Source: Kiritimatiellia bacterium
GTDB taxonomy: Bacteria > Verrucomicrobiota > Kiritimatiellia > RFP12 > UBA1067
DNA: 64,000 nt
Assembly (NCBI GenBank): GCA_017514235.1
Contig: JAFWKK010000050.1
Coordinates: 1-64,000 of the forward strand
Direction of reading: 5' to 3'
Positions 7,472 to 30,333 of this stretch are shown one piece after another (positions within the stretch are counted from its first letter, which is position 1; the number at the start of each line of letters is the position of its first letter). Under the pieces are notes generated by a model. It was given only the letters and a program-made list of their open reading frames with translations. It ran no database searches and was not told the DNA's origin. Position numbers and translations under genes: made by a program.

Positions 7472-8953
7472 TCATGCCGTAACGACAGCCGACTGGATCG
7501 GATCTCCGCGAGATCCGAACGCCGCGACCGGCGTCACCGCGAAACGGAACGGCGTTGCACGCGGCAGTTCGTCCGTGGCGAACACGCACTCGGTGCAGAG
7601 CGGCTGGCGCCGACGCGCGCGGTTGAAGCCCTTTGCCGACACGCGCTTCATCTTGAACGTCTTTCCGTCAGCAACGGCGGCCACCTCGAAATACATTGCC
7701 CGCGAAGCCGTCTCGGCGGTGGCGGACGGAAAGTTCACGGCGAAGGCATCCTTGATTTCGCCCGCCCGGTTCTGCCGCCGGCAACGGTCCACCTCGACTT
7801 TCGCTGTCGCAGCGAAGAGCGGCTTCTTCTCCGACGCCTTCTGCCGACTCGGCAGAAATGGCTTGCCCTTTTCCGCCGGCGACCACGGCACAATCCAGTC
7901 GTCCGCCAACGGCTCGTCGGAGAGGAAATCGTGCCGAGTGATCTCGATACGGTCGTCGAACACCGTCAGGAGCGAGCCTTGCCGGGCGTCGATGAACGAG
8001 GAGCGCGGCAGCATCTTCCGCGCGTTCTTGGCGTCGGCGTCAGGCCCGTAGGATTTCGTATCCTCAAACGCATCGGGATGCAGGTCCTCTGTGAACGCGC
8101 TCCCGTAGCGGAGTGAACTCATCGACAGCGACGTAAATGCCCCCTGCCACAGCGAATGATTGTCCGTCAGGGAATAGTGGGAATGGCCCGAAATCGCAAA
8201 GGCGTTCGGAAACTTCGACAGCGCCGCGGTGGTGTCGCCCCGGTCGTGTCCCCAGCCGTTCGGACCGTAGTTGGTGTCCTTCGGGAGCGGATGCTGCAGG
8301 TAGAAGAACGGCTGGCGCGGATCGGCCTTGGCCCCGGCGGCGCAGATGGCCTCGGGGGCGCCGGCGAAGGAGACGTTGCCGTACGCCTTGTAGGGGAAGC
8401 CCTCCCAGTGCGCGCCGATGAACGTGTAGCCCTTCACGCGCTTCGTCCAGACCGGCTGGTACGGCTCGTCCCAGATGCGCTCCCACGCCGCCTTCATGTT
8501 CCCCTGCAGCGTGGCCTTCGCCAGCGCCGTCGGATCGGGGTAGTGCATCTTGCCGAAATTGCGGTAGAGGAACCCCTCCCAGTCGTGATTGCCGGTCACG
8601 AAGAGCCGTTCCACGCGGCGGCCGTCGGGAAGTTTGTCGTCGGGGAAGACGCGCCACCACGCCTCCGCGACGGCCTCCATCTCATAGATCATGCCGTAGT
8701 CGGCCAGATCCCCCGTGATCACCACGCCATCCACGCCGGCATCCCTGAAGTGGCAGAGCGCACGCACGAACGTGTGGACGTTGAAGCTCATGAACTCGTG
8801 CCACTGCTCCCTTCCTGCGCACCCCACATGGATGTCGCTCAGCACGCCGAGCGTGAGACGGGCACCGCCTGCGTCACCCGTTTTTGCAAACGCCGCCGGC
8901 GCCGCCGCGAACGCCGCCGCGCCGCCAAGGAACCGTCTTCTCGTCACTGTCAT
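7472..8953 (-). CDS. Tat-exported calcineurin-like metallophosphoesterase
   Basis: Exported phosphoesterase of 493 residues. The Tat leader is TRRRFLGGAAAFAAAPAAFA. The metal-binding motifs are intact: SDIHVGC, TGDLADYG, TGNHDWEG, a histidine in LQHPLP, and SGHSHYS. It is the canonical member of the trio, against which the 1922-3166 paralogue looks degenerate. AGGAGG precedes the start by about ten bases, and the gap to the upstream glycosidase gene is 30 bases. Its co-operonic position with glycosidases suggests dephosphorylation of a glycan or sugar-phosphate outside the cytoplasm; this is inference. Confidence 0.87.
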   Translation of the reverse strand: MTVTRRRFLGGAAAFAAAPAAFAKTGDAGGARLTLGVLSDIHVGCAGREQWHEFMSFNVHTFVRALCHFRDAGVDGVVITGDLADYGMIYEMEAVAEAWWRVFPDDKLPDGRRVERLFVTGNHDWEGFLYRNFGKMHYPDPTALAKATLQGNMKAAWERIWDEPYQPVWTKRVKGYTFIGAHWEGFPYKAYGNVSFAGAPEAICAAGAKADPRQPFFYLQHPLPKDTNYGPNGWGHDRGDTTAALSKFPNAFAISGHSHYSLTDNHSLWQGAFTSLSMSSLRYGSAFTEDLHPDAFEDTKSYGPDADAKNARKMLPRSSFIDARQGSLLTVFDDRIEITRHDFLSDEPLADDWIVPWSPAEKGKPFLPSRQKASEKKPLFAATAKVEVDRCRRQNRAGEIKDAFAVNFPSATAETASRAMYFEVAAVADGKTFKMKRVSAKGFNRARRRQPLCTECVFATDELPRATPFRFAVTPVAAFGSRGDPIQSAVVTA

Positions 8954-14393: not shown

Positions 14394-15311
14394 CTACGCG
14401 GCAGGGCGGGCGGACAGGAACGCTTCGACCTCGGCTCGCGTTGGCGCGGACGGCGGACGCCCCGAAAGCCCACGGCACTTGATGGCCGAGACCGCCGCGC
14501 CGAAGCGCTGGCATTCCATCAGGTCATGCGTCTCCAGCCAGCGCACCGCGAAGCCAGTGTGGAAGAGGTCTCCGCAGCCGGTCGTGTCGACGACCTTGTC
14601 GACCTTGAATGCCGGACACTTCACGAAGTCCTTCCCGTCGAAGCACATGGAGCCGCGAACGCCCATCGTCGCGCCGCACACCTTCGGCCTGTACTTCGTC
14701 CAGACCTGACGCACCGCCTCCTCGGCGTCCTTGAGCCCCGTAAGCTTCAGTATGAACTCCTCGGAGCAGATCAGCAGGTCGGCTAGCGGCAGAAGTTCCT
14801 GCATTCCGTCGCGGTGCGTCCCGGCGTCGTAGTTCACGAGAACGCCCGCCTCGCGCGCGACCTTCGCCGCCGCTATCGCGCCCGCCGCGTTGTGACCGTC
14901 TAGATGCAGCACCTTCGCGGCGGATATCGTCTCGGCGTCTATCTCGTCCGCAGTCAGCTCGTCCAGGCCTTCGCGGGTCCACGCGCACGAGCGGTTGCCT
15001 GTCTTCTCCTCCACCCAGAGATAGGCGATTGCGCTCGTCGCGCCCGGGCGCACCCTGACCATCGACGTGTCAACGCCCTGCGCGGCAAAGTCCGCAAGGA
15101 TCATCCGCCCGTCCGCATCGTCGCCGACGGTGCCGGCGAACGCCGCCGACATGCCGAGCGTCGCCGCGCCAGCCGTCGAGTTGGCGGCAGGTCCGCCGCC
15201 CATGATGGCGTGGGAGAGCATCTTAACCTTGGTGTCCATTGGTATGAACGGCAGCACCGCGAGGTGGTCGTTCGAGCAGAACCCGAGCCCTATGTAGTCA
15301 AAGCGTTTCAT
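14394..15311 (-). CDS. PfkB-family sugar kinase
   Basis: Ribokinase/PfkB-fold carbohydrate kinase of about 305 residues. The N-terminal substrate loop GGGPAANSTAGAATLG and the C-terminal anion-hole/catalytic motif DTTGCGDLFHTGF (Asp of GD as base) are both clear. ATG-15311 (MKRFDYIGLG) is chosen because it follows AGGTGAG at about ten bases. A GTG at 15323, directly after the upstream stop, is an alternative adding four residues. It is the last gene of the 18824-14394 group and probably phosphorylates a sugar released by the secreted products; the substrate is unknown. Confidence 0.9.
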   Translation of the reverse strand: MKRFDYIGLGFCSNDHLAVLPFIPMDTKVKMLSHAIMGGGPAANSTAGAATLGMSAAFAGTVGDDADGRMILADFAAQGVDTSMVRVRPGATSAIAYLWVEEKTGNRSCAWTREGLDELTADEIDAETISAAKVLHLDGHNAAGAIAAAKVAREAGVLVNYDAGTHRDGMQELLPLADLLICSEEFILKLTGLKDAEEAVRQVWTKYRPKVCGATMGVRGSMCFDGKDFVKCPAFKVDKVVDTTGCGDLFHTGFAVRWLETHDLMECQRFGAAVSAIKCRGLSGRPPSAPTRAEVEAFLSARPAA

Positions 15312-15323
15312 CGAAGACCACAC

Positions 15324-17438
15324 TCACCTGATGATTATCTGCGCACCAACAAAGAACGGCCGCTCCCAGCCGCCGCCGGCAAGAAGGTACTTCCCGGCGT
15401 TGCGGAAGTACGTCTCCGTCACCTTGTCCCACAAGACAGGAGCGCCAGTCGCCGGATCGCGCACAGGCACAATGTCGCGCACGAGCGCATACGAGCCGTC
15501 CTGCTGCTTTTGACGGAGCTTCAGCCTGTAGAGCCTCACCTTGCCCGGATATCGCGCCACCCCGTCTTGATTGACGGCGAAGAGATACATCGGGCGCTCC
15601 GTGTCGACGGGCCCGTCGACGTGCTGTGCAAGGTTGCCCACCGTCGTCCACGCGCCGACTTCGTCCGTCGTCGCTACCGAATAGTGCTGGTCGCCGTCAT
15701 CGAGAAGCGACACGATCCTGTACTTTGTCCCGGCCATGGCAGACACACCGGCACCATCCTTGAGCAAGCTGAACAGCTCGGCGCTGTATCCATTGCGATG
15801 GGATCCGTTCCAATAATGGTACGGATAGAACCGTATGCCCGCCGTGCCGCGATTGTTTGTCTTATAGCTGTCCTTCGCGCCGACGAACGCGCCGTCGTTC
15901 GGAACGCGCAGCCACTCCATCACCGCCTCCATCTCGATTCCGTCCTTGCCGATGACGCCGAGATTGACGTAGTCCAGCAGCTCGTCCGAATCGACGTATT
16001 CAAGACGAGTCTCAGGGCGCGCGACGGCGCGGAGCGTGTTCGTGACAGCGCCGACCTGATTGGTCAGGTTGAATTCATACTGATCCCCGTTCAGCTGACG
16101 ATAGATTCGCTCGGTCACCGTATCGTAAAGCCCTGCGTAGGCCGTGCCAGCTGCGTTGGTCGCCACTACCGGCACGAAATCGCGCAGCAGCTCATCGCCG
16201 TCCCATATCGTCGTGCGGTACAGGAGCGCGTTCGAGTAGAACCTGGCCTCGCTGTACCGACCGTCGTTGCACGCCAGCAGGTACATCGTGTTCGTCGTGA
16301 ACATCTCGCCCGTGAGATAGGCGGTGTCCTTGTGCAGTTCGGTAGGCGTCCCGCCGTTCTTGCTGACGGTCACGGACTGGAAGCCGTCCTGGATGTCGGA
16401 CTTGATGAGGTAGCGCGTATCCATGTAGAAGGAAACGTCGTTCGTCGGGGCGACCTTGTTGATCGTGGTCTTGCCGGGCATGGTTCCGTAAGCGTAGCGG
16501 AACTGGCTCTCGTAGTTGTAGGCTGGGTAGAGGCGCGTGTCGCCAGTGCCGCGGCGGGCGCCGAGGATGCAGCGGTCGCCATCGTATTGGCGCACGCTGA
16601 TGTCGATCTCGCTCTTAAGCCCGCCCTTGCCCCAGACATGCGTGTCGAAATGCTGGTTGCCGTTCGCCCAGACCCACTTCACGAAGTCAAGCGGCTTGTC
16701 GAGGACTGGTCCGGCGACGAAGTTGTCATTGTCACTGCTGAAGGAGTAGTAGATCTTGCCCTCCACCTTGTCGTAGAGTCCGGCGCGTCCGTCCTTGATG
16801 CAGGGAAGGTAGTGGCGGATGAGGTCGAGTTCGCCCGACTGGGCGTTCTTCTTCCAGATCTTCAGTTCGTAGAGCTTGCCCTTGCTGAACCATGCCGCTT
16901 TATTACTTAAGTGGCAAGCGAATACATAGAGGCTGAGGTTCAGGTTGACGAGACCGTTCGTCTTGAACGTCTCCAGGTCTGTGGCGCTGAAGGTGTTTTT
17001 GCCGTTCTGGACGAGCTGGAGCGAGTTGGTGTCGGTCATGTCCGTGACAATCTCGTAGCGCTGCCCGCCGACGAACGGGAACGAGTCATCGGGATTCTTG
17101 CGCTGCTTGACGCCGTAGCCGAAGTACGGCTTGCCGCCTCCGCCATACAGGTGGCACATAAGGAAGCGATTGCGCTTGTCCGAGACGGTGTTGTCTATCG
17201 CGGCGTCGAGGAGCGACCAGTCATTGCCGCTTATGTTCCCGCTTGCCCACGAGAAGTCGATCCTCGCCTTGAGGCCGGTCTCGGCGTTGACGCCCGTGTC
17301 GATGTATTGCGTACCCGTCGCCTCGATGTAGTCGAGGAAAGCGTCAGGTTCCGCCGTAACGGTTCCGGCATTCGCGGACCTGGCCACAAGCGCAACTGTG
17401 CCAAGCGCAAAAGCACCAACAACGAATGACTTATTCAT
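15324..17438 (-). CDS. secreted protein with three LamG/ConA-like lectin domains
   Basis: Signal peptide MNKSFVVGAFALGTVALVARSANA. Three related jelly-roll domains of about 200 residues follow; the first two open recognisably: YIEATGTQYIDTGVNAETGLKARIDFSW and VWANGNQHFDTHVWGKGGLKSEIDIS. The third, YVDSDELLDYVNLGVIGKDGIEMEAVMEW, is more divergent. Each ends near a region of type VRDIVPVRD or FVPVVATNAAGTAYAGLYD. Such domains bind carbohydrate or protein ligands; no enzyme motif is visible. ATG-17438 is preferred over one 24 bases upstream because GGGGGAAG lies just before it. The C-terminus is GAQIIIR, fitting the shared tail pattern. In operon with the beta-strand protein upstream (33-base gap). 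Confidence 0.8.
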   Translation of the reverse strand: MNKSFVVGAFALGTVALVARSANAGTVTAEPDAFLDYIEATGTQYIDTGVNAETGLKARIDFSWASGNISGNDWSLLDAAIDNTVSDKRNRFLMCHLYGGGGKPYFGYGVKQRKNPDDSFPFVGGQRYEIVTDMTDTNSLQLVQNGKNTFSATDLETFKTNGLVNLNLSLYVFACHLSNKAAWFSKGKLYELKIWKKNAQSGELDLIRHYLPCIKDGRAGLYDKVEGKIYYSFSSDNDNFVAGPVLDKPLDFVKWVWANGNQHFDTHVWGKGGLKSEIDISVRQYDGDRCILGARRGTGDTRLYPAYNYESQFRYAYGTMPGKTTINKVAPTNDVSFYMDTRYLIKSDIQDGFQSVTVSKNGGTPTELHKDTAYLTGEMFTTNTMYLLACNDGRYSEARFYSNALLYRTTIWDGDELLRDFVPVVATNAAGTAYAGLYDTVTERIYRQLNGDQYEFNLTNQVGAVTNTLRAVARPETRLEYVDSDELLDYVNLGVIGKDGIEMEAVMEWLRVPNDGAFVGAKDSYKTNNRGTAGIRFYPYHYWNGSHRNGYSAELFSLLKDGAGVSAMAGTKYRIVSLLDDGDQHYSVATTDEVGAWTTVGNLAQHVDGPVDTERPMYLFAVNQDGVARYPGKVRLYRLKLRQKQQDGSYALVRDIVPVRDPATGAPVLWDKVTETYFRNAGKYLLAGGGWERPFFVGAQIIIR

Positions 17439-17471
17439 GGACTTCTTCCCCCTTCTCATCATTTCTTATTC

Positions 17472-18824
17472 TTATCGAACGCTCAATATCACGCCGCAAG
17501 GATGCGAAACGCGGAGCGTACCGCTGCCGAACGTGTAGTCACCACGCGGCTGCTGCACTCCGTTGACCGTCAGCGTCCTTACGTTCACCGTGACGCCGGA
17601 CGCGATTTCAAGCGATGACATTGACGCGAGTTTCACGTTGGCCTTTTTCCCAAGCGCATTCGGATTGGCGATGGTGATCTTGCCAGACCCGTTTACCGTC
17701 ACGTTCGTGGAATTCGCCCAAGAGCCGTTTGCCGTGAACTGGAGTATTGCCGCATTCGCTCCGCCACCTCCGTTACCCTCTATAACAAGGTCGCCTGTGG
17801 CGGTCATCGCGTGGTCGATTATCGTCGTCCAAATGTTCTTCTCGAAGACAACGGAAAGATTACCGCCGATGCGGATGTTTGCCGCTGAACTGCTTGGTCC
17901 GTACATCATTCCCATGTGGAGCGTGGCTGTCTTCGCCGAAGAGTTTGTGACAACCGAGGGGTTGCCAGAAGGCACATTCACCTCGAATTGCCCGACGCGC
18001 TGCTCTGTGCCACAGAGATCCCACCTTGAATCGTGACCGAAATGCATATACATGGTTGAATTGTCAAACGCCCAATCCACGGTCGTCTTCAGCTCGCCAA
18101 TGTGAAACGGGTAATTCGGGTGCGCAAATCTTGCAAGAGAGTTTCCGGCAACCGCGAAGATGTAGTGGCGCGAGAATCCTGATGCGTCTGGTTCGCCGAC
18201 GCCTGCTGCCGTGTTGCATGGAAAGTTGTGGGTAAGCCGTATGGGCGTGTTGGTGAACACAATCGTGCCTCCACGGGCCTCGCGAAATGTCACACAACCC
18301 GGACCTTCGAAGCCCCCTTCAAACACAAGCCGCGCATTTACGTATGGATAGATGTGAAAGCCTCCGCCAGAGAACGTAACCTTCTTCTTGAATGTGGAAT
18401 TTCCGTATCCGCCCCACATTCCGATTCCAGACTGTTCACCCCATAATCCAAGAGTGTCAAAATACACCTCCTTGTCTATCGTTCCGCCAGACGTAGTGAG
18501 TTTGTTCGTCGTCACATAAATCTTGCCGGGACCGACGCCGAGTGAGTTCGCCGCCGAAAGACGCAACGGTGCGAGCGCATAGACATCGCCTGTGAACGTG
18601 CTGCTCTTGTCAACGACCAGTCTCGCCGTGCCGCGCACGACAAAGTTGGTGATTGCGTTGGAGTCGAGAACGTTAATCGCCTCTTGCGAAATCGACGTCT
18701 CGGCGGACGTGACCGTTGCGACGTATGTCTTGTTGTCGTTCTCGTAGGTGTACGAGACCGTCGCCAGAGCGGACGCGTACATTGTCAAGCTTCCGGCAAA
18801 ACAGATTGTTTTCATCACATTCAT
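17472..18824 (-). CDS. secreted autotransporter-type beta-strand repeat protein, 450 aa
   Basis: Signal peptide of the form MKTICFAGSLTMYASALA. The body is beta-strand-rich, with the repeat ARLVVDKSSTFTGDVYALAPLRLSAANSLG typical of autotransporter-associated strands (a Gly/Thr/Val strand, then an aromatic, then LxAANxLG). It has no transporter barrel. The C-terminus is GVILSVR, the shared tail pattern. AAAGGAAA precedes the ATG, and a good promoter lies at 18870-18898. First gene of a three-gene unit with the LamG protein and the PfkB kinase. Function unknown, probably glycan binding or surface structure. Confidence 0.72.
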   Translation of the reverse strand: MNVMKTICFAGSLTMYASALATVSYTYENDNKTYVATVTSAETSISQEAINVLDSNAITNFVVRGTARLVVDKSSTFTGDVYALAPLRLSAANSLGVGPGKIYVTTNKLTTSGGTIDKEVYFDTLGLWGEQSGIGMWGGYGNSTFKKKVTFSGGGFHIYPYVNARLVFEGGFEGPGCVTFREARGGTIVFTNTPIRLTHNFPCNTAAGVGEPDASGFSRHYIFAVAGNSLARFAHPNYPFHIGELKTTVDWAFDNSTMYMHFGHDSRWDLCGTEQRVGQFEVNVPSGNPSVVTNSSAKTATLHMGMMYGPSSSAANIRIGGNLSVVFEKNIWTTIIDHAMTATGDLVIEGNGGGGANAAILQFTANGSWANSTNVTVNGSGKITIANPNALGKKANVKLASMSSLEIASGVTVNVRTLTVNGVQQPRGDYTFGSGTLRVSHPCGVILSVR

Positions 18825-18931: not shown

Positions 18932-20677
18932 TCAAAATTCTCCTGCGGTTGACCGCACTGCCGAACATGGGACAAACACTTCAAATTCATCAGTGTCGGG
19001 ATTGGCACGGCAAGCATGGGCGTAGTCGACAAGAGCGTGCTTCCGCCCTTTTCCATCTGCACCAACGAACTTCACGAACGACGATTCTCCGCCGTATTGC
19101 CGTTCGAACCGCAGATCGGATGGGATTTCCTCGCCAAGCCTGTCGCCCAAACCCGTGTCGCGAACGAGCACAAGTGGACCATATGCAAATTCGACATGCC
19201 GCTTGCCATCGATGTCATGCGTCTTGCGCACAAGGCCCATCTTGAAGTCAAGACTGACAACCGTCTCGCACGACGGAGCCAGGTCGACAGCCGCAAAGCC
19301 TTCGTCAGCAGGCTGCACGACTCTCCTGCCATTGATGCCGAGTTCCCATTCGCGGCACCAGCTCGGAATCGGCAAGCGCAGTCTGCGCGGAGTCTTCGAT
19401 ACAGCCCGGAGCTCGATGCGCCCGTTCCTTGGGTACTCGGTCACCACTTTCAGCGCAAGACCATCATCCGCCCGATAGGAGAATTGCGCATAGACGAGCG
19501 GCGTCACGTTCGTGCCATCGTCGTCTAGAAGCATCTCCGGCAGATGTGCCATGATTGCGAAGCCCCGATAGCGGCAGCACTGATAGACACCGTTTCTTCT
19601 AAAGGCCTTGCGCCCGACATTGCCCTGGTAGTACGCGAAATCCGATCCGTCGGAGGCGACGGATCCGAGGATGTGGTTGTAGAGAGTCCTCTCGATTTCA
19701 TGCGCACACCTGACGTCGCCCGTGACGGAAAACATCTCCCGGGTAAACCTCAGCCATCCGCATTGCACGCAATTCTCGTTCGGTTTCATCTCGATCGGAA
19801 GGATCGCAGGCGCGTTACCGTCTGGCAGAAAGCGTTCCCTGTTCGTCGCCGCGCCCGTGTTTCGCATCTGTGTCTCTGCGATCGACCGCCAGTAGCGAGA
19901 ACAGGACCGGATCGCCATGCCGTCATCCGCCAGTCGTGCATACGACAGGACGCCGCGCCAAGCGTTGAGCATCTCAATTCCCTTCCTAGACTGCAATGTC
20001 AGGCAGTCCGGATTCGAAAGAAGGTTCATTTTCGTCGTCTCCAGTCCGTGCAGCGTTCTTTTGACGTAGTCCACGTACTTTCGCTCGCCCGAGATCCTGC
20101 TCGCCATGACAAACGCATAAAACGCCGTAAGGTTCTGCGAACCGCCGTTGCTGACCATGCGCATGTCGACAAGACGCTCTGGCGACATCGATTGGTGCGC
20201 CCTTAGAAGCCAGTCCGCCGCACGGAAGCCATATGCCCTAGCCTTGGCACTTCCCGTGGCGTCGGCAAACCGCACAAGGCCGTACACCGCATGGGCCTGG
20301 TTCCATAGCGAGAAAGCGCGCATACGGCGCTCGGGAACTTCACCCCCTATGTATCCGTCTTCGGACATCGAATTCTTGAGCGAATCGACAATGCGTTCTC
20401 CGAACCGTCGGGCGCATTCCAGCCGGTCAAGTTGCCAATATGTCGCGCAAAGGTCCAGGTAGTGGCCGCAGAACTCCTGCCGTGCGTTGGCGACACCTTT
20501 GTCCTGATCGCCGACAGCGGCAAAGCCGCGAACATGCTCTTCGGGATCGATGCGCGTCTCGAACGTCGACTTGGCATATTCTCGAAAACGGCGGAGCGGC
20601 CCGTCGTCCAAAGTCACTTGCCCGGCCCACGCCGCCACAGACAGGCAAGTGGTTCCCGCCAGCAACGTCCCTTTCAT
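18932..20677 (-). CDS. secreted GH127-family (beta-L-arabinofuranosidase-type) enzyme
   Basis: Signal peptide MKGTLLAGTTCLSVAAWA, then an (alpha/alpha)6-barrel typical of the GH127/DUF1680 family and a C-terminal beta domain (581 residues). The zinc/cysteine site can be read: ENC with E301 and C303, and QCC with C367 and C368, matching the Glu-x-Cys and Cys-Cys of characterised GH127 beta-L-arabinofuranosidases, where one Cys of the pair is the nucleophile. Other family marks are FTREMFSVTGD and LYNHILGSVASDG. It is the last gene of the glycyl-radical operon (85-base gap). Activity on L-arabinofuranose or a related furanoside is likely. Confidence 0.85.
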   Translation of the reverse strand: MKGTLLAGTTCLSVAAWAGQVTLDDGPLRRFREYAKSTFETRIDPEEHVRGFAAVGDQDKGVANARQEFCGHYLDLCATYWQLDRLECARRFGERIVDSLKNSMSEDGYIGGEVPERRMRAFSLWNQAHAVYGLVRFADATGSAKARAYGFRAADWLLRAHQSMSPERLVDMRMVSNGGSQNLTAFYAFVMASRISGERKYVDYVKRTLHGLETTKMNLLSNPDCLTLQSRKGIEMLNAWRGVLSYARLADDGMAIRSCSRYWRSIAETQMRNTGAATNRERFLPDGNAPAILPIEMKPNENCVQCGWLRFTREMFSVTGDVRCAHEIERTLYNHILGSVASDGSDFAYYQGNVGRKAFRRNGVYQCCRYRGFAIMAHLPEMLLDDDGTNVTPLVYAQFSYRADDGLALKVVTEYPRNGRIELRAVSKTPRRLRLPIPSWCREWELGINGRRVVQPADEGFAAVDLAPSCETVVSLDFKMGLVRKTHDIDGKRHVEFAYGPLVLVRDTGLGDRLGEEIPSDLRFERQYGGESSFVKFVGADGKGRKHALVDYAHACRANPDTDEFEVFVPCSAVRSTAGEF

Positions 20678-20762: not shown

Positions 20763-21527
20763 TTACCCGCGTCGCACCGACACTGAAGTGAACCCTGACA
20801 GCCTGCGGACCATTTCGCCTGCATATCCCTCAGGCGGCGAAGGGGCTTCGTAGACCTTCAGGCCGAGCTTGTGCGCCTTGTCAATCCCATACGGTATGTA
20901 AGGCTCTACGTCAATGTGATCCACATGCTTCAACCCCGACGCAAGACGGCCAAGCGCAGCTATGTTCGCGTCAAAGTCGTTGACTCCAGGTATCATAGGG
21001 CACCTAAGAACAATGTTGGCACCATGTACATCCAGCCAACGAAGGTTCTCGAGAATCGTACGGTTGTCAACGCCCGTATGTTCGCGATGCTTCGACGCAT
21101 CCATACCCTTGACGTCATACAACCAGAGATCAGTGACTGACGCGACCGCCTCCATCGCGGACAGCGGCGCATATCCGCTCGTCTCAATTGCCGTGCGGAC
21201 GCCATTTGCCCTGACTTTACTGAAGACTTCCTCCACAAACTCCCAACGAAACATGGGTTCACCGCCGGAAATCGTCATGCCGCCTCCTGACGCATCATAG
21301 AAGTCCTTGTCCTCCATGACCTCGGACACAACCTCGCCGGACGACATCTCGCGTCCTATGACCGTTCCGTCCGAATATCTCTCAACGGACGGGTTCCACG
21401 ACTCTGGGCTATGGCACCACATGCACCGCAGCGGACACCCCTTCAGGAATACGACTGTACGAATCCCAGGCCCGTCGTGCGTCGCGAACCTCTCGATCTC
21501 GAATACAATGGCGCGTTTGCCTTTCAT
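20763..21527 (-). CDS. glycyl-radical-enzyme activase (radical SAM, PflA-like)
   Basis: A 254-residue radical SAM enzyme that installs the glycyl radical on the partner encoded 6 bases upstream. The cluster motif CPLRCMWCHSPE (CxxxCxxC) lies at about residues 31-38, the SAM motif is TISGGEP, and the N-terminus FEIERFATHDGPGIRTVVFLKG is diagnostic of activases. It is the short type, without the inserted two-cluster ferredoxin-like domain. No signal peptide is present, so activation must occur in the cytoplasm. It belongs to the operon that starts at 28987. Confidence 0.95.
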   Translation of the reverse strand: MKGKRAIVFEIERFATHDGPGIRTVVFLKGCPLRCMWCHSPESWNPSVERYSDGTVIGREMSSGEVVSEVMEDKDFYDASGGGMTISGGEPMFRWEFVEEVFSKVRANGVRTAIETSGYAPLSAMEAVASVTDLWLYDVKGMDASKHREHTGVDNRTILENLRWLDVHGANIVLRCPMIPGVNDFDANIAALGRLASGLKHVDHIDVEPYIPYGIDKAHKLGLKVYEAPSPPEGYAGEMVRRLSGFTSVSVRRG

Positions 21528-21533
21528 AGACGG

Positions 21534-23915
21534 TCAATGAAGCCTGTGTCTAGCGATTACCTCGTCCTGCCAGCGCTTGGAAAGCGCAATGAACCGTGCG
21601 GAGAAGCCGCATACGCGGATGATAAGGTGCTGGTATCGTTCGGGATGCTTCTGGGCGTCAAGCAGCTCTGCGACCGACGTGCAGTTCGGCTGGATCTCGT
21701 GCGCCCCCTTCTTCGCGTATACACGGAACACCGAGGCGAAAGTCTCGGGGCTCACCGCCGACGGTTCGAAGGTGAGATTCGCGTTCGACTGGTACACTAG
21801 CTCATGCGGAAGGCTGCCAATCGCGTTTATGACAGTGGTGACACCGGCTTTGCAACGGAATTCGCTCGGGCTCATCCCCTGGGAAAGCAAATCGCCATCT
21901 CTCCGCCCGTCCGGCGTCGCCTTAAGCTCCCGACCCCAGTACATGAACTCACGGTATGCGTACAAGTCGAGCACGATCGGACCGCCGTACTCATTCGACA
22001 GCCCGTCGATTCCGTCATGCACCGAACGCACCACCCACGACGCCAAGTCGTTGGTCTCCGGTCTGTTGTCGCCCCAGTACGGTGCAGCCAAAACCGCCTT
22101 ACGCAACTCTTCGCCCCGCGGCCCGGACCAATTCGAGCGAACCACATCCAGCAGTTCCTTCAGGGTGCATGTCTTGTCTACAAAGCAAAGCTGTCGGATT
22201 GCCATAAGCGAATCGACGAAGCTGCCGAAGAACGCAAGCGTGAACGCCTTCGGACGGAACCTGACGCCCCCCTCCGTGGTGTCGCGGCGCGACTTGATTC
22301 CGCCATCAAGACACATCGTGTAGGCGGGATGAGGAAAGACTCTCGCACCTGCCGCACCGTACCGAACTGCATACGCGATCAACGACCTGTAGAATCTCAG
22401 CACGTTGCGCATGACCGTGTCGCGCACATCGTCAAAGCTCTTGGCGTCGTCTATCGGCTCAATCTCAACCTGTGCAGACGCCTCCAACGCCGGATCTTTG
22501 TGTATGGTCATCTCCAAGAGTTTCATCAGCGAGACATAGTTGCTGTCGTCCACGTCCGTCACTGAGTCGACATAGCCTTCCCAGCATCCGCCGCCGACGT
22601 AATCGCGCGCCTCCGAAAGCGTAAAGCCGTAGCCAAGCGAATTCGCCACATGACGTTCATCGTTGAGCAGGGTGAAGACCGAATGACCCTTGAGTATCAT
22701 CGCACCTATCGTTCTTAGGTACTCTTCGGGAGAGGTTGACGAGAATCTGCAGAACAGCTTTGGATAGACGCAGTCGCATCCGATGTGCGCTTCAAGGAAC
22801 GCCTTGGTCAGCTCGTTCCATACCGGCTTTCCGTCAGGATGACATCCACCAAGCGTCAGCTGAATCTCAACCTCCTGGTCGTCATAGCTGTCGACAGGCA
22901 CTGCGCCAGACTCGTGGCAGTCGGCATACACCACGAACTTTGCCACCAGTTCGCGCATCTCATCCTCGGTGATGCGTCCGGCGGCGAGGTCGGCGCGGTA
23001 GTAGCCGATGCACCAGGCGTCTGGATGCCCCAAAGCCTGATTGGCCAGGCCGTCCACGTAGCCCAGAACCTCACGCACGAACCACATTGTGTTCAGTGCC
23101 TCGAAGAATGTCTGCGGAGGCTCCCACGGGCAACGCTTTGCCGCTTCGGCAATGCGACGCATGTTCCTCCGCGCCGCCTCGTCGGGGAGTCCCGCCGACA
23201 GCAGCTCCTCCGCCTTCTTGGCGAAGGCAAGCTGAATCTCATGTATCGTATCGAGGCCAACAAGCGCCGTCTCCAGCTCCTTGCGTCCATACGGATCGTC
23301 CTTGGGACAGCTGGCCAACGCCTCGGCAACATCTGCGCGGACGCCCGAGAACCCTTTGGCGTAGATCGTGCGGAACGGCGGGACATGGTGCACCGAGTCG
23401 ACGAAAGGTCCGCAGCAGAGCGTCAGGTGCGCCTTGGAGCGAGCGCGCAGAATGTCGAATGCCTCATCCGGCACAAGGCCGCGTTCCTTATAGAACCTGT
23501 AGCAAACGGCAAAGACGGAACTTCCCGGACGCGCCCCCGACCAGCCCCCGTTCACTCCGCACTCGCAATAGAACGGAGAATCGGGAAAAAGGATCGGGTA
23601 GAAATGCCGACGCATGAGCATGTAGCATTCGCGTCGGGCATCAAGCGCATCGTGGTCTGGATGCGCATTCGACCAGGCAATCATCTCACGGCGGATTGTC
23701 GCGGCCTTCTCGACCTGCACCGGATCCTGACATTCCTTGCGGCAATACCCAGGAGGGAAAAACGCCCTTAGAGTCCTCCTGAAACTGGCGTAGTCCTCTG
23801 CCTTGAACGGCACCTGCTCCGCAGCCGTCTCCCCGGCCATGCCCTTGTGTCCGCCTCCGAACGTCACGGCAAACGCCGCCGTAGAACCGAGGAATTCCTT
23901 TCGCGTCATGCTCAT
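21534..23915 (-). CDS. glycyl radical enzyme (PFL-like) with Tat-like leader
   Basis: Pyruvate-formate-lyase superfamily protein, 793 residues, usual length for the family. The C-terminal radical motif RVCGFSARF puts the radical glycine at G770. The active-site cysteine is C444 in GGGCWEGY, where characterised enzymes usually have GCVE; Glu446 is kept. Other marks are QLTLGGCHPDG and the long alpha/beta-barrel strands. Uniquely, it begins MSMTRKEFLGSTAAFAVTFGGG, an RK variant of a Tat signal followed by a hydrophobic stretch. AAAAAGGAT precedes the ATG by seven bases, so the leader is part of the gene. The reaction is not predictable: dehydratase, lyase or C-X cleavage of a sugar-derived alcohol or acid is possible. 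The activase follows 6 bases downstream. Confidence 0.92.
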   Translation of the reverse strand: MSMTRKEFLGSTAAFAVTFGGGHKGMAGETAAEQVPFKAEDYASFRRTLRAFFPPGYCRKECQDPVQVEKAATIRREMIAWSNAHPDHDALDARRECYMLMRRHFYPILFPDSPFYCECGVNGGWSGARPGSSVFAVCYRFYKERGLVPDEAFDILRARSKAHLTLCCGPFVDSVHHVPPFRTIYAKGFSGVRADVAEALASCPKDDPYGRKELETALVGLDTIHEIQLAFAKKAEELLSAGLPDEAARRNMRRIAEAAKRCPWEPPQTFFEALNTMWFVREVLGYVDGLANQALGHPDAWCIGYYRADLAAGRITEDEMRELVAKFVVYADCHESGAVPVDSYDDQEVEIQLTLGGCHPDGKPVWNELTKAFLEAHIGCDCVYPKLFCRFSSTSPEEYLRTIGAMILKGHSVFTLLNDERHVANSLGYGFTLSEARDYVGGGCWEGYVDSVTDVDDSNYVSLMKLLEMTIHKDPALEASAQVEIEPIDDAKSFDDVRDTVMRNVLRFYRSLIAYAVRYGAAGARVFPHPAYTMCLDGGIKSRRDTTEGGVRFRPKAFTLAFFGSFVDSLMAIRQLCFVDKTCTLKELLDVVRSNWSGPRGEELRKAVLAAPYWGDNRPETNDLASWVVRSVHDGIDGLSNEYGGPIVLDLYAYREFMYWGRELKATPDGRRDGDLLSQGMSPSEFRCKAGVTTVINAIGSLPHELVYQSNANLTFEPSAVSPETFASVFRVYAKKGAHEIQPNCTSVAELLDAQKHPERYQHLIIRVCGFSARFIALSKRWQDEVIARHRLH

Positions 23916-23940
23916 CGCGTCAATCCTTTTTCAACCATGC

Positions 23941-26745
23941 TCACTTGAACATCAGAACGAACCCTCGCTTGCGCACCGCCTTCAGCGTGTTCCCCACCCA
24001 GCAAAGCAGCCACTTGTCGGACTCTAAGCCTGTCAGCGTCGGCGAACCCGAGAAACCGCCGACAATGGTCAAGAGCGTGATGCGTTGGTACTCTTCGGGC
24101 AGAGGATCAAGAACATCGGGATTGAGCAAGGCCAGCGTCGAGTTCTCGGGAAAGTTCAATGAATACGGATATTCGATCGGGCTCCCCTTTGCCAGCACGG
24201 CGGCGCAATCGACACCATACCGACGCGGGGCGGAAGACCCGTCGGACATTGTCTTTCCATTCATGTCAAACTCGCCGCCCTCAAATACAACCATCGAATC
24301 CAGCGGTATCACGCCGTTCGCCCCGCACTTGAGCACGCCGGCCCGTAACACGGTGCTTCCCACATACGTATTTTGAGCCATGAGGGTCAACGTGCCGCGT
24401 CCGGCCTTCGTCAGCCCCCCGCCAGGCTGGCTTTCGCCTTCGGTAAGAGAAGCCGTGCAGGAAACCGTCCCGCTTCGGTCCGCCGTCGCAATCGTCACTG
24501 TCGGCGGCGCAACGTAGTCCCAGCCAGGGCAAGTCACCTCAATGCCCGTGACGCTGCGCGTCTGCGGGTCGTATACCGCATGCGCCGTCGCGCCCATGCC
24601 CCCGCCGCCGGAGATCCGGACCTCCGGCGCACCGATGTATCTGCCGTTTGCCATTCCCGAGGGCAGGGCAATCGACGCGACCCCTCTCCCGCTCGGACGG
24701 AGGAATGGCGTGTTCGCGTCCTGCGGACAGCTGTTGCCGTTCGTGTCGAACACCATTCCGCCCGGGAATACCGTGATGCGGTCTATGGCAGTCGATCCGC
24801 TCCCGAAGAAAGAGACGTTGTCGGAACTGTTCAACGCCACTGTGCCGCCGCCAAAGTTCACGAACGCATGGTTGTCGGCCGACACTTGAGCTGCATATCG
24901 CTCGATCTTACGCGTCTTCAGGACACCCGCATTCAAGTTTAGGACGGACGTGAACGCACCCGCTCCTCCGGACAGACACACTGCCGCGTATTCCACCTTC
25001 GCCGTCGGACAGCCGTCTCCGCAGAGCGTCATTACCGCCTGCTGTGCCGTCGCATCCGACCCGCGACCGACGATTACGCCGTTGGGCATCGCCAGTTCGC
25101 CGCCAGTCATGTGGTACTCGGCCCATCCGCCGTGGCGCCCGACGTAGGCTTGAGACTCCGTTGCCATTACGCCGCCGCGCTGCTCGAAGATGCCGGTCGA
25201 ATCCGAATAGTATCCGCAGGCGAAAAGTGCCCTGTACTCGAACGCCCCTCCGTAAAGACCGTAGTACCCGTAACTCCCGTGTTCGCAACCGCAGTATGCG
25301 TCGTTGCCTGATACCGCGTTGTTATAAACACTGCCGCCGTACTGATGAACCGCTCCGCGCATGTTGGCGTTCTCGCCGACATGAATCGTGTTCGTTATCC
25401 CTGCGCCGGGACGCACCTCCAGCACCGCTCCGGGCCCGGATGGCTCCTCGACCCACAGTCCGCCACGCTGCCTTACACCCCAATCGGGAACCGCAGCCAC
25501 AAGCGCCGAACTCCCGCCAATGGTCATACACGACGACGCGCCGCCGTCAGATGCTCCGCCGCCAACGCGCCACGTAGCCACCTGCCCCGGATTGTCACCA
25601 ATGGAGATTGTCCCGACATCCTGGAACACCGCCGTGCCGCCGTTCGTGACGGCGATAAAATTGCCGGAATAACCGTTCCACCTTCCTGACGCAATGAAGA
25701 TCATGTTCGAGCCTGACACTTCCAGGTTGCCCGCTCCGGACACATCTCCTTCCTGCCTAATCGTCATCAAAGGACTGGATGCGCTGCTTGCACTGACAAT
25801 TGTCGGGCTGTCGATTTGGAGACCTCCGCGCAAGCGGTATTCGGCGGATGCAATGGCCGAGGCGTATATCCTTACCTTCTTGCCGTTGTATGTGTTGCAC
25901 ATCCTCACGTTCGCCATCAGTCCGTCCGATGCGTCGAAGTCGACAAGCTTCAGCATGGAAGCGTCCAAGACAAGGTTTACCGCTGAATCTGGAAACGTCG
26001 CATCACCGCAGAACAGCAGTCCGTATCCGCCCTGATAGTCCGCACCAGTTCCCCAGGTCACGATCGTGCCGCTGCTGAGATGCGTGCAATCGAACATCGA
26101 GAAATCCACGTAGCCGTTGTCGTAATAGTTGCCGACGGTCAGGGTATGTTCCCTCAGGTCAGTCGTCTTGACTCCGATTCGCGAATCCGCGATGTTTACC
26201 GTGGCGTCGTCCGACAGCTCAAGATGGGCGATCCAACCGTCCTGCGTATACGACCCGCCGGCAGCGGTTCCGTTAGGCCTGGCGAGAAGCGCTCCTTTCC
26301 ATTTGTCGGCCACGCCGTCAGGACCGCTTCCAGACAGTACCAGACGTTTGGATATCTGCTCGAAAGCCTGTCCCTGACGGACCAGATGCGCATAAAGCTG
26401 CGCCTTGGCCGCAACGGTGATTGCTCCGTCTGCCATGCGCGTCTGGGCGGTAGACCTGCCCAACGCCCCGCAATGAGTGATATGGACTATGCCAGCGTCG
26501 ATGTCCACGGCTCCGGTAAAGCTGGAGTTGTCGCGGTTCACGACAAGCGTTCCGGAACCTGTCTTGATTACACGGGAAACATCCGTCCCGATGGCCTCGT
26601 CATACGTGAACTCGGAGCCCGCATCGACATTGATCGTAATCTCCGAGCCGGACCTTGACGCACCGTTTGTACCCAAGGCCTGAAACGCTTGAGCAAGCGA
26701 CACCACAAGAAGCGACAGATTCGCGACGGTCTTGATGCAACCCAT
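23941..26745 (-). CDS. secreted autotransporter-type beta-helix protein, 934 aa
   Basis: N-terminal signal (MGCIKTVANLSLLVVSLAQAFQALG). It contains clear autotransporter-associated beta-strand repeats: near residue 60, KTGSGTLVVNRDNSSFTGAVD, and near residue 800, TKAGRGTLTLMAQNTYVGSTV. The central half is rich in Gly, Tyr and Ser (YYGLYGGAFEYRALFACGYY). No autotransporter barrel is present. The C-terminus is GFVLMFK, the shared tail pattern. It is 31 bases downstream of the GHL10-like gene and 25 bases upstream of the glycyl radical enzyme. A surface glycan-interacting role is inferred. Confidence 0.75.
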   Translation of the reverse strand: MGCIKTVANLSLLVVSLAQAFQALGTNGASRSGSEITINVDAGSEFTYDEAIGTDVSRVIKTGSGTLVVNRDNSSFTGAVDIDAGIVHITHCGALGRSTAQTRMADGAITVAAKAQLYAHLVRQGQAFEQISKRLVLSGSGPDGVADKWKGALLARPNGTAAGGSYTQDGWIAHLELSDDATVNIADSRIGVKTTDLREHTLTVGNYYDNGYVDFSMFDCTHLSSGTIVTWGTGADYQGGYGLLFCGDATFPDSAVNLVLDASMLKLVDFDASDGLMANVRMCNTYNGKKVRIYASAIASAEYRLRGGLQIDSPTIVSASSASSPLMTIRQEGDVSGAGNLEVSGSNMIFIASGRWNGYSGNFIAVTNGGTAVFQDVGTISIGDNPGQVATWRVGGGASDGGASSCMTIGGSSALVAAVPDWGVRQRGGLWVEEPSGPGAVLEVRPGAGITNTIHVGENANMRGAVHQYGGSVYNNAVSGNDAYCGCEHGSYGYYGLYGGAFEYRALFACGYYSDSTGIFEQRGGVMATESQAYVGRHGGWAEYHMTGGELAMPNGVIVGRGSDATAQQAVMTLCGDGCPTAKVEYAAVCLSGGAGAFTSVLNLNAGVLKTRKIERYAAQVSADNHAFVNFGGGTVALNSSDNVSFFGSGSTAIDRITVFPGGMVFDTNGNSCPQDANTPFLRPSGRGVASIALPSGMANGRYIGAPEVRISGGGGMGATAHAVYDPQTRSVTGIEVTCPGWDYVAPPTVTIATADRSGTVSCTASLTEGESQPGGGLTKAGRGTLTLMAQNTYVGSTVLRAGVLKCGANGVIPLDSMVVFEGGEFDMNGKTMSDGSSAPRRYGVDCAAVLAKGSPIEYPYSLNFPENSTLALLNPDVLDPLPEEYQRITLLTIVGGFSGSPTLTGLESDKWLLCWVGNTLKAVRKRGFVLMFK

Positions 26746-26776: not shown

Positions 26777-28987
26777 TCAGTCTGACGTCAGTCCCATTCG
26801 AAGCGCCGGCAAGGCGTGCGCCATCCGACGAGAATAGTCGAAGATGTAAAAACCGTCCAACCCGAGTTCTCGCACCGCCTTGACCTGCTCGACAAGGTTC
26901 TCCCTGTCGTCAAGCGTGCTCTGCCAGCATGTGATGCCGATTCCGGGACGCAACTTCGCCTTGGAATCCCGGAAATAGCCGAAATGGGAACGGACCAGAC
27001 CCTTGAACGCAAAATGCGTACCAACATAGTAGTCCATCGGGCAGACGAAATCCAACAGACCCTCCCTGCACCATGTTCCCCAGTCCTGCCCGACCTTATG
27101 CGGCGTCTCTTCGTTGGTATGGAAGACGGACGCGGATATCTGCACGCCTGGGCATTCCACGCGCACACGGTTCGACACTGCTCGCACTAGTGCGGTTATA
27201 TTGCTGCAACGGAAAGTATCCCACTCCCGTACGAGATCGTCCGATTCCCGAATGTCCTCAGGCCAGTTGGCGACCATACGCCCGATGCGCTTTTCGAACG
27301 CATCCCGGCAGCCATTGCAAAAACACTGATCCTGATCCATGTAGCGAATATAGTCGAGATGGATTCCCGTCGGGCCCCGTCGCGCAAGTTCAACGAACAT
27401 TTCCGTTTCCGACGCAAGATTGAACGGGTCCGACGGACACATGAATCGAGGTTCGCTCTCGCCGTTGAACGTTACGACAGTGCGTCCCTTGAAGCCCTTC
27501 GAAAAACCGCCGCACGCTTCCCAGCAGATTTTCCAGACATGACACTCGAACCCGTGTCTGCGGCACGCGTCCAGACAGCTTCCAAAGTCAGAGTATTCGT
27601 TGGCATATGCGTAATTCGGAAGAATGGAATTAAACCCGTTCCGCTGCAAGAATCCTATTGCATCATCCCAAGTTCCGAACGGAGAATTGCCCTTGTCAAT
27701 GCGGTCGCAGAACGATTTGGTGCAGCAGACCGCCCTCCATTCCCCTTTCTTGGGCGACTGCGAGGCGAACCAGCGCATTTTTTCTCGTTCCGCATCACGC
27801 GAGCGTTTCTCCGCGTCTGCAAATCTTCCCCGCCATGTCGGATTCACTTCGCCAAGAATCGACCGCATCATGGCACGGCCTCCCGAACCTGCCGTGCTCC
27901 ATGCTCCGCCGTAGTGGTAACCATTGCGGGTCCTGACCAGCGCCGGCACCGACGTGGCCTTGCGGTCAGATCCAGCCCAACGACCTATGACATCGCACCC
28001 GCCGCTCCCTTCAAGAACGACCAACCCGTCGGCATCAGCGTCGGGGAAGAACTCAGGCTGGCCGGACGGCGAGAGATGCGTTCTAACCATGCCGACAAAC
28101 GGAGGATTCTCCGGGTGTTTGGACGAGAGATAATAGGAACAACCGACCTTGACACCCAGCACCTCTGGAATCCCCTTCGCCAGCGAATAGCAGGCAAACA
28201 CCTTTCCTCCATCGCTACAGAAAGCACGCAAGACATCGGCAGCACCGTCAGGCAAATGGGGATTGAACGGCAGCACCACAAGTTTAGCCCTGTTGAGCAG
28301 CTCCGCGTCCAGATCGCAATCGGGAACTGCCGCCGCAGATACGCCGCACTCGCGAATCACCTGAGTCATGCACTCCGCGAACTTGTGAAAGTTTACGGCA
28401 TTCTCCTTCGGCATCTTGGCGATGGCGGAATTGCCGCGAACCACGACCACCTCAGGCGCTGCTCCGAAGACCTTCATGTTCGACAGTAGAAACGAGGTGT
28501 CGTTGGTGCCGCCGCGCCAGGCCGCAATTGAGACGGACGTTATGTCACCCCACCCGTGCGGAGAGCCTTCCATCCGCCGCACAAGAGACTTGTCAACTGT
28601 TACGCGCCGCCATTCGCCAGACTTGCCGGGAACGAAAGAAGTCGTATGACATCCACCGTTGTAAAAGAAGTAAAGGCTGAACGCACTCACCTGGTCGTTG
28701 TCACGACACAAGAAGTCAAAGGATATCCCGTCGTTGAGCTTCAGACTGCGGCCAAAGTCAATGTTCCACCGAACGCGGGAGTTCCTGTTCGTCGAGAACG
28801 GTGCTTGGAGCTCGACAACCCCTGGGGCTTCCAAACGCGGAGCCGGCGATCCTTCAACCGGGTGGATTAGCCCCACGTCCAATTCAACTTCGCCAGAAGA
28901 TGCAGCAGAACCGCAAAACGACATTGGCGCAGCCAGCGCAATGGCGATTGCGGATAACATTTGTAATGGCCGTATCCAAAGTTTCAT
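26777..28987 (-). CDS. secreted GHL10-like glycoside hydrolase with N-terminal binding module
   Basis: Signal-like N-terminus (MKLWIRPLQMLSAIAIALAAPMSFCG; a Cys at its end could also make it a lipoprotein). Residues 35-170 look like a carbohydrate-binding jelly roll. Residues 180-390 look like a class-I amidotransferase-like domain as found in beta-galactosidase trimerisation modules. Residues 420-736 are a GHL10/DUF187-type barrel (WDDAIGFLQRNGFNSILPNYAY, GPTGIHLDYIRY, ELGLDGFYIFDYSRR). It is the first gene of the operon and probably leaderless: the -10 lies 7 bases before the ATG. Substrate unknown. Confidence 0.75.
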   Translation of the reverse strand: MKLWIRPLQMLSAIAIALAAPMSFCGSAASSGEVELDVGLIHPVEGSPAPRLEAPGVVELQAPFSTNRNSRVRWNIDFGRSLKLNDGISFDFLCRDNDQVSAFSLYFFYNGGCHTTSFVPGKSGEWRRVTVDKSLVRRMEGSPHGWGDITSVSIAAWRGGTNDTSFLLSNMKVFGAAPEVVVVRGNSAIAKMPKENAVNFHKFAECMTQVIRECGVSAAAVPDCDLDAELLNRAKLVVLPFNPHLPDGAADVLRAFCSDGGKVFACYSLAKGIPEVLGVKVGCSYYLSSKHPENPPFVGMVRTHLSPSGQPEFFPDADADGLVVLEGSGGCDVIGRWAGSDRKATSVPALVRTRNGYHYGGAWSTAGSGGRAMMRSILGEVNPTWRGRFADAEKRSRDAEREKMRWFASQSPKKGEWRAVCCTKSFCDRIDKGNSPFGTWDDAIGFLQRNGFNSILPNYAYANEYSDFGSCLDACRRHGFECHVWKICWEACGGFSKGFKGRTVVTFNGESEPRFMCPSDPFNLASETEMFVELARRGPTGIHLDYIRYMDQDQCFCNGCRDAFEKRIGRMVANWPEDIRESDDLVREWDTFRCSNITALVRAVSNRVRVECPGVQISASVFHTNEETPHKVGQDWGTWCREGLLDFVCPMDYYVGTHFAFKGLVRSHFGYFRDSKAKLRPGIGITCWQSTLDDRENLVEQVKAVRELGLDGFYIFDYSRRMAHALPALRMGLTSD

Positions 28988-29059: not shown

Positions 29060-29074
29060 AAGTTTTGGTAGACT
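29046..29074 (+). promoter_or_regulatory. promoter TTGTCA-17-TAGACT, leaderless regulator mRNA
   Basis: -35 TTGTCA (29046-29051), a 17-base spacer ending TTTTGG, and -10 TAGACT (29069-29074). ATG-29083 begins 8 bases after the hexamer, so transcription should start within about two bases of it. There is no Shine-Dalgarno. Confidence 0.7.
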
Positions 29075-29082
29075 GCCATAAC

Positions 29083-30333
29083 ATGAAACGAGTAATAGTT
29101 TCTTTGACTTCTGACAGCAATGCCATGAGGGAATGCATCATCGGTGTATTCAACTATGTGAATGCCGGTCATCCGTGGAAGATTCAAATCGTTCCGGATC
29201 CGCTTGGATACACGAATGACGGGATGAACCCGAAGACAATCGACGAAGCGGTCAAGTGCGGTGTGGACGGCATTATCACCGGGCTGGACGTGTACACAAC
29301 TGGATTTCGGCGGCTGGTGACAAGCGGCATTCCCCTTGTCCTAAACTCGGCGCCACCCGACTGGACGCCTCCGAAAGGTGCGCCTATCACCGTTCTGCAC
29401 AATGACGACCTAGCAGTCGGAAGGATGGGAGCCAAGTATCTGCGGAGCAAAGGGAGCTTTCGCACGTTCGCGTTCGTTCCACTGGGGAGGAAGTGCTCAT
29501 GGTCAACACTCCGCAACCGCGGATTCAGGATCGAACTTGCAAAATGTGGCATAATGTCGCAGACGTTTCGACGAAACCGCATTACAATGGACGAATGGAT
29601 CGTTTCGCTCCCGAAGCCCGCCGCCGTCATGACTGCCACTGACTGCGAGGCGATCAACGTAATCGAGACTTGCAGAAACAACAAGATAAGGGTTCCAGAT
29701 CAGGTAGCCGTACTCGGAGTCGACAACGACATGCTATATTGCTGCGCAACAAGACCTCAGATATCAAGCATTCATCCGAATCACATCGAGATGGGTCGCA
29801 GGGCCGCTGCGGAACTGGATCGTCTCATGCAACAACGCGTTCCATCTCACAAGGAGATATTCATACCACCAATCGGTCAAATCGAACGGGAATCCACCAG
29901 AACCATTCCTCCGTCAGGTCATCTCATCAAAGAAGCGTTGTCCTACATACACAGTCACTGTCAAGACGGAATAACCGTCAAGTCAGTAGCCCGCCACGTC
30001 GGAACCTCTGAGGCCTTGCTGAGGCTCCGGTTCAGAACGACACACGGAAAGTCCGTGCGAGACGTCATACTCGAATCCAAGCTTGAAGCAGCAAAGTCTC
30101 TGCTCAAAAAAACGGACAAGCCCATCACACGCATCGCGGAAGAATGCGGATTCTCATCCGCCTGCAGACTGTCTCATTTCTTCATCGAACGAACCGGGCG
30201 CTCGCCACGGGAATGGCGCACTCTTCATCCTGATCATCTTGTCGCCTCGTCCCGCAATGTTGCGCTTTCAGGCGAACCGCCGGCAAGATATCCGCCGGAG
30301 CGTCCGTCCGCGCCGCCTGTCCAGAAGGAGTAG
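29083..30333 (+). CDS. AraC-family regulator with LacI/XylR-type sensor domain
   Basis: Paralogue in architecture of the regulator at 13185. Residues 1-265 are a periplasmic-binding-like sensor (RVIVSLTSDSNAMRECIIGVFNYV... VAVLGVDNDMLYCCATRPQISSI). Residues 285-390 are an AraC domain with two helix-turn-helices (VKSVARHVGTSEALLRLRF and ITRIAEECGFSSACRLSHFF). ATG-29083 is chosen because an upstream TTG at 29065 would overlap the -10. It is divergent from the GHL10/glycyl-radical operon, its likely target. Its last 100 bases overlap the convergent gene ending at 30234; the tail after REWRT is Pro/Ser-rich and probably not part of the DNA-binding fold. Confidence 0.9.
   Translation: MKRVIVSLTSDSNAMRECIIGVFNYVNAGHPWKIQIVPDPLGYTNDGMNPKTIDEAVKCGVDGIITGLDVYTTGFRRLVTSGIPLVLNSAPPDWTPPKGAPITVLHNDDLAVGRMGAKYLRSKGSFRTFAFVPLGRKCSWSTLRNRGFRIELAKCGIMSQTFRRNRITMDEWIVSLPKPAAVMTATDCEAINVIETCRNNKIRVPDQVAVLGVDNDMLYCCATRPQISSIHPNHIEMGRRAAAELDRLMQQRVPSHKEIFIPPIGQIERESTRTIPPSGHLIKEALSYIHSHCQDGITVKSVARHVGTSEALLRLRFRTTHGKSVRDVILESKLEAAKSLLKKTDKPITRIAEECGFSSACRLSHFFIERTGRSPREWRTLHPDHLVASSRNVALSGEPPARYPPERPSAPPVQKE

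Follow-up and report, generated by a model that had tools for sequence, protein, structure and literature searches.

To our knowledge, the glycyl radical enzymes (GREs) and GRE activases described so far act in the cytosol, where S-adenosylmethionine (SAM) and reductant are found. Described relatives include the eliminases CutC and the 1,2-propanediol and glycerol dehydratases, the trans-4-hydroxyproline dehydratase HypD, and PflD and YbiW, which share the GRE fold and were solved with sugar-like ligands, 1,5-anhydrohexitol-6-phosphates (titles of PDB 8id0 and 8id7). Because these ligands are phosphorylated, we infer that the PflD/YbiW reaction takes place inside the cell. Here we describe a GRE with a leader resembling those of the twin-arginine translocation (Tat) pathway, encoded in the first 64,000 nucleotides (the window) of contig JAFWKK010000050.1 from a Kiritimatiellia bacterium (assembly GCA_017514235.1). 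With moderate confidence we take it to be an exported GRE, which would be activated in the cytosol, moved across the membrane folded, and act on a carbohydrate-derived substrate.

The gene (21534..23915, minus strand) is a complete open reading frame of 793 residues with the start MSMTRKEFLGSTAAFAVTFGGGHKG. Pfam assigns the product to PFL-like (267 bits, cut-off 24) and Gly_radical (70 bits, cut-off 22), and the modeled structure and its structural alignments place it in the GRE fold. Two motifs reported by a first-pass annotation, made from the sequence alone, read as stated: the active-site cysteine motif GCWEGY at residues 443-448 (Cys444, Trp445, Glu446; 22572..22589, minus strand) and the glycyl radical motif RVCGFSARF at residues 767-775 (Gly770; 21591..21617, minus strand). 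The named GRE families of NCBIfam, whose models include CutC, HypD, HpsG, HpfG, indoleacetate and hydroxyphenylacetate decarboxylase and PFL, do not accommodate the protein: 12 models matched it and none exceeded its cut-off (the highest score was 237 against a required 678 bits; HypD gave 207 of the 1100 bits required). Placement in one of these named families, which the annotation had listed as grounds for refutation, was accordingly rejected. A related genome does encode a HypD above cut-off (L027, 1246 bits, cut-off 1100). Identity to CutC, the dehydratases, PflD and YbiW is approximately 20%, and where the aligned CutC and propanediol dehydratase sequences have Val after the active-site Cys, the window GRE has Trp. 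Glu446 lies two residues past the Cys, as in the GCxE eliminases; PMC6453916 describes the conserved Glu at this position as deprotonating the substrate and as required in related lyases.

The leader, MSMTRKEFLGSTAAFAV (residues 1-33; 23817..23915, minus strand), is in frame and lies outside the GRE fold. Its residues have predicted local distance difference test scores below 50, most structural alignments to GREs begin around model residues 33-42, and the CutC and dehydratase alignments show no counterpart. It contains the Tat-type motif TRKEFL (residues 4-9; 23889..23906, minus strand) and, by our own rule, an uncharged hydrophobic stretch after it. The Tat consensus is S/T-R-R-x-F-L-K, so that the leader looks like a Tat signal in which RK replaces the twin arginine; RR is found in 9 and RK in 5 of the 14 Tat-type members of the clade defined below. 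Chance was rejected as a source of the leader: when residues 2-40 were shuffled 200,000 times, the Tat rule was passed in 198 cases. The same genome encodes TatC (174 bits) and TatA/B (54 and 32 bits), all above cut-off. The ATG is preceded, at a distance of 8 nt, by a Shine-Dalgarno-like AAGGA (23924..23928, minus strand). A 78% identical relative (L068) retains TRKxFL with synonymous codon changes, and it has Ser at the position of the alternative start, Met26. These observations rule out an artefact of start choice, and run counter to the annotation's own reservation that the first 25 residues might be unconserved or lie outside the gene.

The window GRE belongs to an unnamed clade with the motif GCW[E/N/D] (the GCW clade). 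Close relatives (at least 47% identity) were found in 21 of the order's 162 genomes, and the clade is also present in certain other Verrucomicrobia and Lentisphaeria. Searching GTDB contigs with two peptide patterns, an approach that can overlook clade members, returned 40 loci, all from uncultured genomes by title (Kiritimatiellae, Verrucomicrobia, Lentisphaerae, Victivallales, Opitutales or just bacterium); the ruminant gut is named in 17 of these titles. Cys444, Trp445 and Gly770 are invariant in all 19 aligned members, whereas residue 446 varies among them (3 E, 8 D, 8 N). The Trp proposed as distinctive is thus constant within the alignment but not unique to the clade, as a distant GRE of the same genome (L002) reads ACWEF. 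A quick tree built from 110 GREs pairs the window enzyme with L068 within the GCW clade; as the tree is drawn, leaderless members such as L092, L093 and L166-L179 fall outside the leader-bearing group. Two further members are unusual: GCW-clade genes at L043 (G065:C161) are apparently split over frames, through assembly errors or as decaying copies, and a GCWE-type GRE at L177:533-3070(-) has a long N-terminal extension, cut by the end of the examined stretch, which resembles a carbohydrate-binding jelly roll by eye and has no Pfam name.

Under a fixed rule, the 29 scorable clade members comprise 14 with Tat-type leaders, 7 with Sec-type leaders and 8 with none. A GCW clade with leaders, which the annotation had anticipated for GCWEG, hence exists, but its leaders are not universal. 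Leaders are absent from all 17 outgroup rows (2 further of the 19 rows are cut clade members with RR leaders) and from all 15 other GREs of these genomes. On the tree, the leader type (Tat, Sec or none) switches at least eight times, with 44 rows labeled by eye; L102, Tat:RK by rule and Sec by eye, was set to Sec here and in the contrast test below. One contig (L008/L052/L097) encodes a protein of 1038 residues in which a signal-like start, a GH16 domain and a GRE are joined in one frame (GH16 62 bits, PFL-like 251 bits, Gly_radical 65 bits).

These patterns bear upon whether the leader is used at all. It could be a relic or be skipped, leaving the enzyme to work in the cytosol as previously described GREs do, and the RK in place of RR, the 8 of 29 relatives lacking a leader, and the internal Met26 at which a leaderless form could begin are all congruent with this. 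We nevertheless think such disuse unlikely: the leader residues are kept through synonymous codon changes, Met26 is lost in the nearest relative, AAGGA precedes the first ATG, the type has switched repeatedly between Tat, Sec and none (on labels assigned by eye), one member is fused to GH16, and the leaders of the activases complement those of the GREs.

Tat transports folded proteins and Sec unfolded ones. A Tat-type GRE can accordingly receive its radical from a cytosolic activase and then be exported, whereas a Sec-type GRE folds outside and its activase would therefore need to be outside too. The window fits the former case. A radical SAM GRE activase of 254 residues (20763..21527, minus strand; Radical_SAM and Fer4_12 by Pfam; TIGR02494 245 bits, cut-off 174) with a CxxxCxxC motif and no leader lies downstream, across a gap of 6 bases as the annotation had said. 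We tabulated 36 GREs with a same-strand activase within 2.5 kb, some of which share one activase; where the last 120 residues were identical, a single row was retained (L196, also Tat/none, was among those removed). By rule, the GRE/activase pairs are 10 Tat/none, 8 Sec/Tat, 10 none/none and 2 none/Tat, and 6 have a cut GRE N-terminus; Tat/Tat and Sec/none pairs are absent among the 36. The two none/Tat rows are the GH16 fusion (L097) and a true exception (L198). Cytosolic activation ahead of Tat export, as the annotation had envisaged, would be compatible with all 10 Tat-type GREs, each of which adjoins a leaderless activase.

At L105, where the GRE is Sec-type, the ATG of the activase overlaps the GRE stop and the activase begins MNITRRAFAGAAAAFAAAGHG; that of the fusion locus begins MENVTRKAFLAGAASLAVAPLL. 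Both arrangements recur in a second GRE clade, which has the motif GC[YF]E and usually RVCGWN as its Gly loop and occurs in 40 of the 162 genomes: Sec-type GREs with Tat-leadered activases at L153/L208 (window genome), L212, L216, L218, L232, L233 and L234, and Tat-type GREs with leaderless activases at L154, L190, L193 and L204. Among 42 other activases a single one was flagged, L138, apparently falsely, from a far upstream GTG start. A wider search of the class for further candidate pairs matched 42 of 346 genomes, only 2 of them outside the order. Taken at the level of sequence, the pairings suggest that the export routes of GRE and activase are complementary in both clades. Two additional features of these loci were observed. 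Three GC[YF]E-type GREs, all Sec-type by rule, share one stretch (L155; G049:C170) beside a sodium:solute symporter. A family of approximately 350 residues occurs near GRE and activase genes of both clades (L148:7396-8463(-), L153:595-1743(+), L105/L039:8044-9081(+) and L228:1050-2156(-)); three of the four copies have Tat-like leaders, the three compared share an HxGxDE motif, and the family has no convincing Pfam assignment and a weak PDB match to glucosaminidase Nag2 (E 0.32).

From this we tentatively propose, as a possibility short of an even chance, two extracytoplasmic routes: either Tat exports a charged GRE, or Sec exports an unfolded GRE and Tat exports its radical SAM activase. In the latter case the Tat signal on the activase would let an iron-sulfur protein cross in its folded state, perhaps already loaded with SAM for a single use; this could suffice because one activation serves many turnovers. 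The window genome itself contains a second GRE/activase pair, of the other clade, in which a Sec-type GRE stands beside a Tat-leadered activase (L153; G000:C14:40000-54000). Its presence raises the prospect that the window GRE is exported without a radical and is activated outside by this Tat-exported activase encoded elsewhere. We consider this improbable, given that a leaderless activase of its own lies 6 bases from the window GRE, that the C14 activase is of another type and has its own GRE, and that we know of no SAM outside the cytoplasm.

Several observations weigh against export of a charged window GRE and against the two routes. The motif is RK rather than RR, and in the leader sample RK in a Tat context is confined to GREs and GRE activases (7 of 12 RK rows: L004, L008, L011, L022, L072, L117 and L120), other Tat-type proteins having RR; the remaining 5 RK rows resemble plain hydrophobic or Sec starts, and none of 4 KR rows in the same sample stands in a Tat context. 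Leader types were assigned by our own fixed rule, the 8 clade members that have no leader near the core include the GH16 fusion, and the clade relatives stem from uncultured genomes. With D or N at residue 446 in 16 of the 19 aligned sequences, the reaction is uncertain. As to the pairing, 10 against 8 without exception would correspond by our own arithmetic to about 1 in 44,000 if the rows were independent draws, but the rows are related. The test corrected for descent covered 19 rows, each of them concordant; the fusion was counted as Sec by eye, and neither L198 nor the none/none rows entered. It leaves three independent contrasts, each pointing the expected way (p=0.25), which falls short of making the complementarity statistically secure. 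Two of the eight Sec-type GREs (L153, L212), though hydrophobic, have no basic start, which makes these calls weaker. Leaderless GREs accompany Tat activases at L198 and, 3.4 kb away, at L148; G058 has Sec-type GREs, and both activases read there (2 of 6 matches) are leaderless; and G049 has Tat-type GREs, its single LMLDTKR-type activase being Tat-leadered.

The GRE lies in a run of minus-strand genes, with gaps below about 110 bases, from a GHL10-like glycosidase (26777..28987; 28.7 bits, barely above the cut-off of 27.9) through a PfkB-type sugar kinase (14394..15323). Within it are a PATR repeat protein of beta-helix type (23941..26745), a GH127-type glycosidase (18932..20677) and two proteins without a Pfam match (17472..18824 and 15324..17462). 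By eye, these four and the GHL10-like enzyme have signal-peptide-like starts, and the kinase has no leader. A divergent regulator with Peripla_BP_3 and an AraC-type helix-turn-helix lies on the plus strand (29065..30333). Elsewhere in the window, a calcineurin-like phosphoesterase (7472-8953, minus strand) has an RR Tat-type leader (MTVTRRRFLGGAAAFAAAPAAFA); Tat-type phosphoesterases of similar kind are found near other GRE loci.

The GH127, GHL10 and PATR beta-helix neighbors, together with the GH16-GRE fusion in a relative, agree with the carbohydrate setting which the annotation had proposed. Carbohydrate-active neighbors recur at several loci: GH127, GH43, GH78, GHL10, alpha-galactosidase-type, DUF4838 and BNR proteins. 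Of 70 listed same-strand neighbors, 55 were scanned (activases and some short or partial proteins set aside). Of the 58 families matched, 25 were listed, each in 1 to 3 proteins and with GH43, GH78, alpha-galactosidase-type, DUF4838 and BNR among them; among these no single glycan is pinpointed. The fusion ties one GRE to a glycanase, and the folds nearest to the window model include C-O and C-N lyases. The substrate is probably sugar-derived, from broken-down fiber, and C-O elimination on such a compound is the likeliest chemistry; because D or N replaces the Glu in most relatives, several substrates or a different base are suggested. That replacement (16 of 19 aligned members) might instead indicate an exported protein devoid of radical chemistry, with a binding or structural role. 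Such a role appears very improbable to us, as Cys444 and Gly770 are invariant in 19 of 19 and the window copy both retains Glu446 and adjoins an activase.

For the exported, cytosolically charged enzyme that we favor, the sequence of events would be as follows. The leaderless cytosolic activase would use SAM to place the radical on Gly770, and Tat would move the folded, charged GRE to an anoxic site, the periplasm or the cell surface, where Cys444 would take hydrogen from a carbohydrate-derived substrate that the GH127 and GHL10 enzymes encoded in this run of genes release or expose, in a reaction which would most likely be a C-O bond cleavage (dehydration or elimination); the PfkB kinase may take up the product inside the cell. 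Tat exports molybdoenzymes and other cofactor enzymes folded and cofactor-loaded; the window GRE would be exported in the same manner, but with a protein radical as its cofactor. Lytic polysaccharide monooxygenases, which are oxygen- or peroxide-dependent copper enzymes, likewise place secreted radical chemistry beside glycosidases; in a GRE, by contrast, the active site is buried in a barrel.

No description of an exported GRE or GRE activase was found among the matches listed in the open-access literature, which mostly excludes subscription papers and preprints. The enzyme class is known; the novelty would lie in its cellular location and in the pairing of export routes. If export signals are indeed exchanged between GRE and activase in this complementary way, a protein radical may be able to cross a membrane within a folded enzyme, and the Sec/Tat form, if real, would mean radical SAM chemistry outside the cytoplasm. 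Coupled with glycosidases, the two-route system, if true, could be an oxygen-free counterpart of the secreted oxidative polysaccharide enzymes, and would add a radical step to the degradation of fiber in the anoxic gut, a setting closed to oxygen-dependent enzymes.
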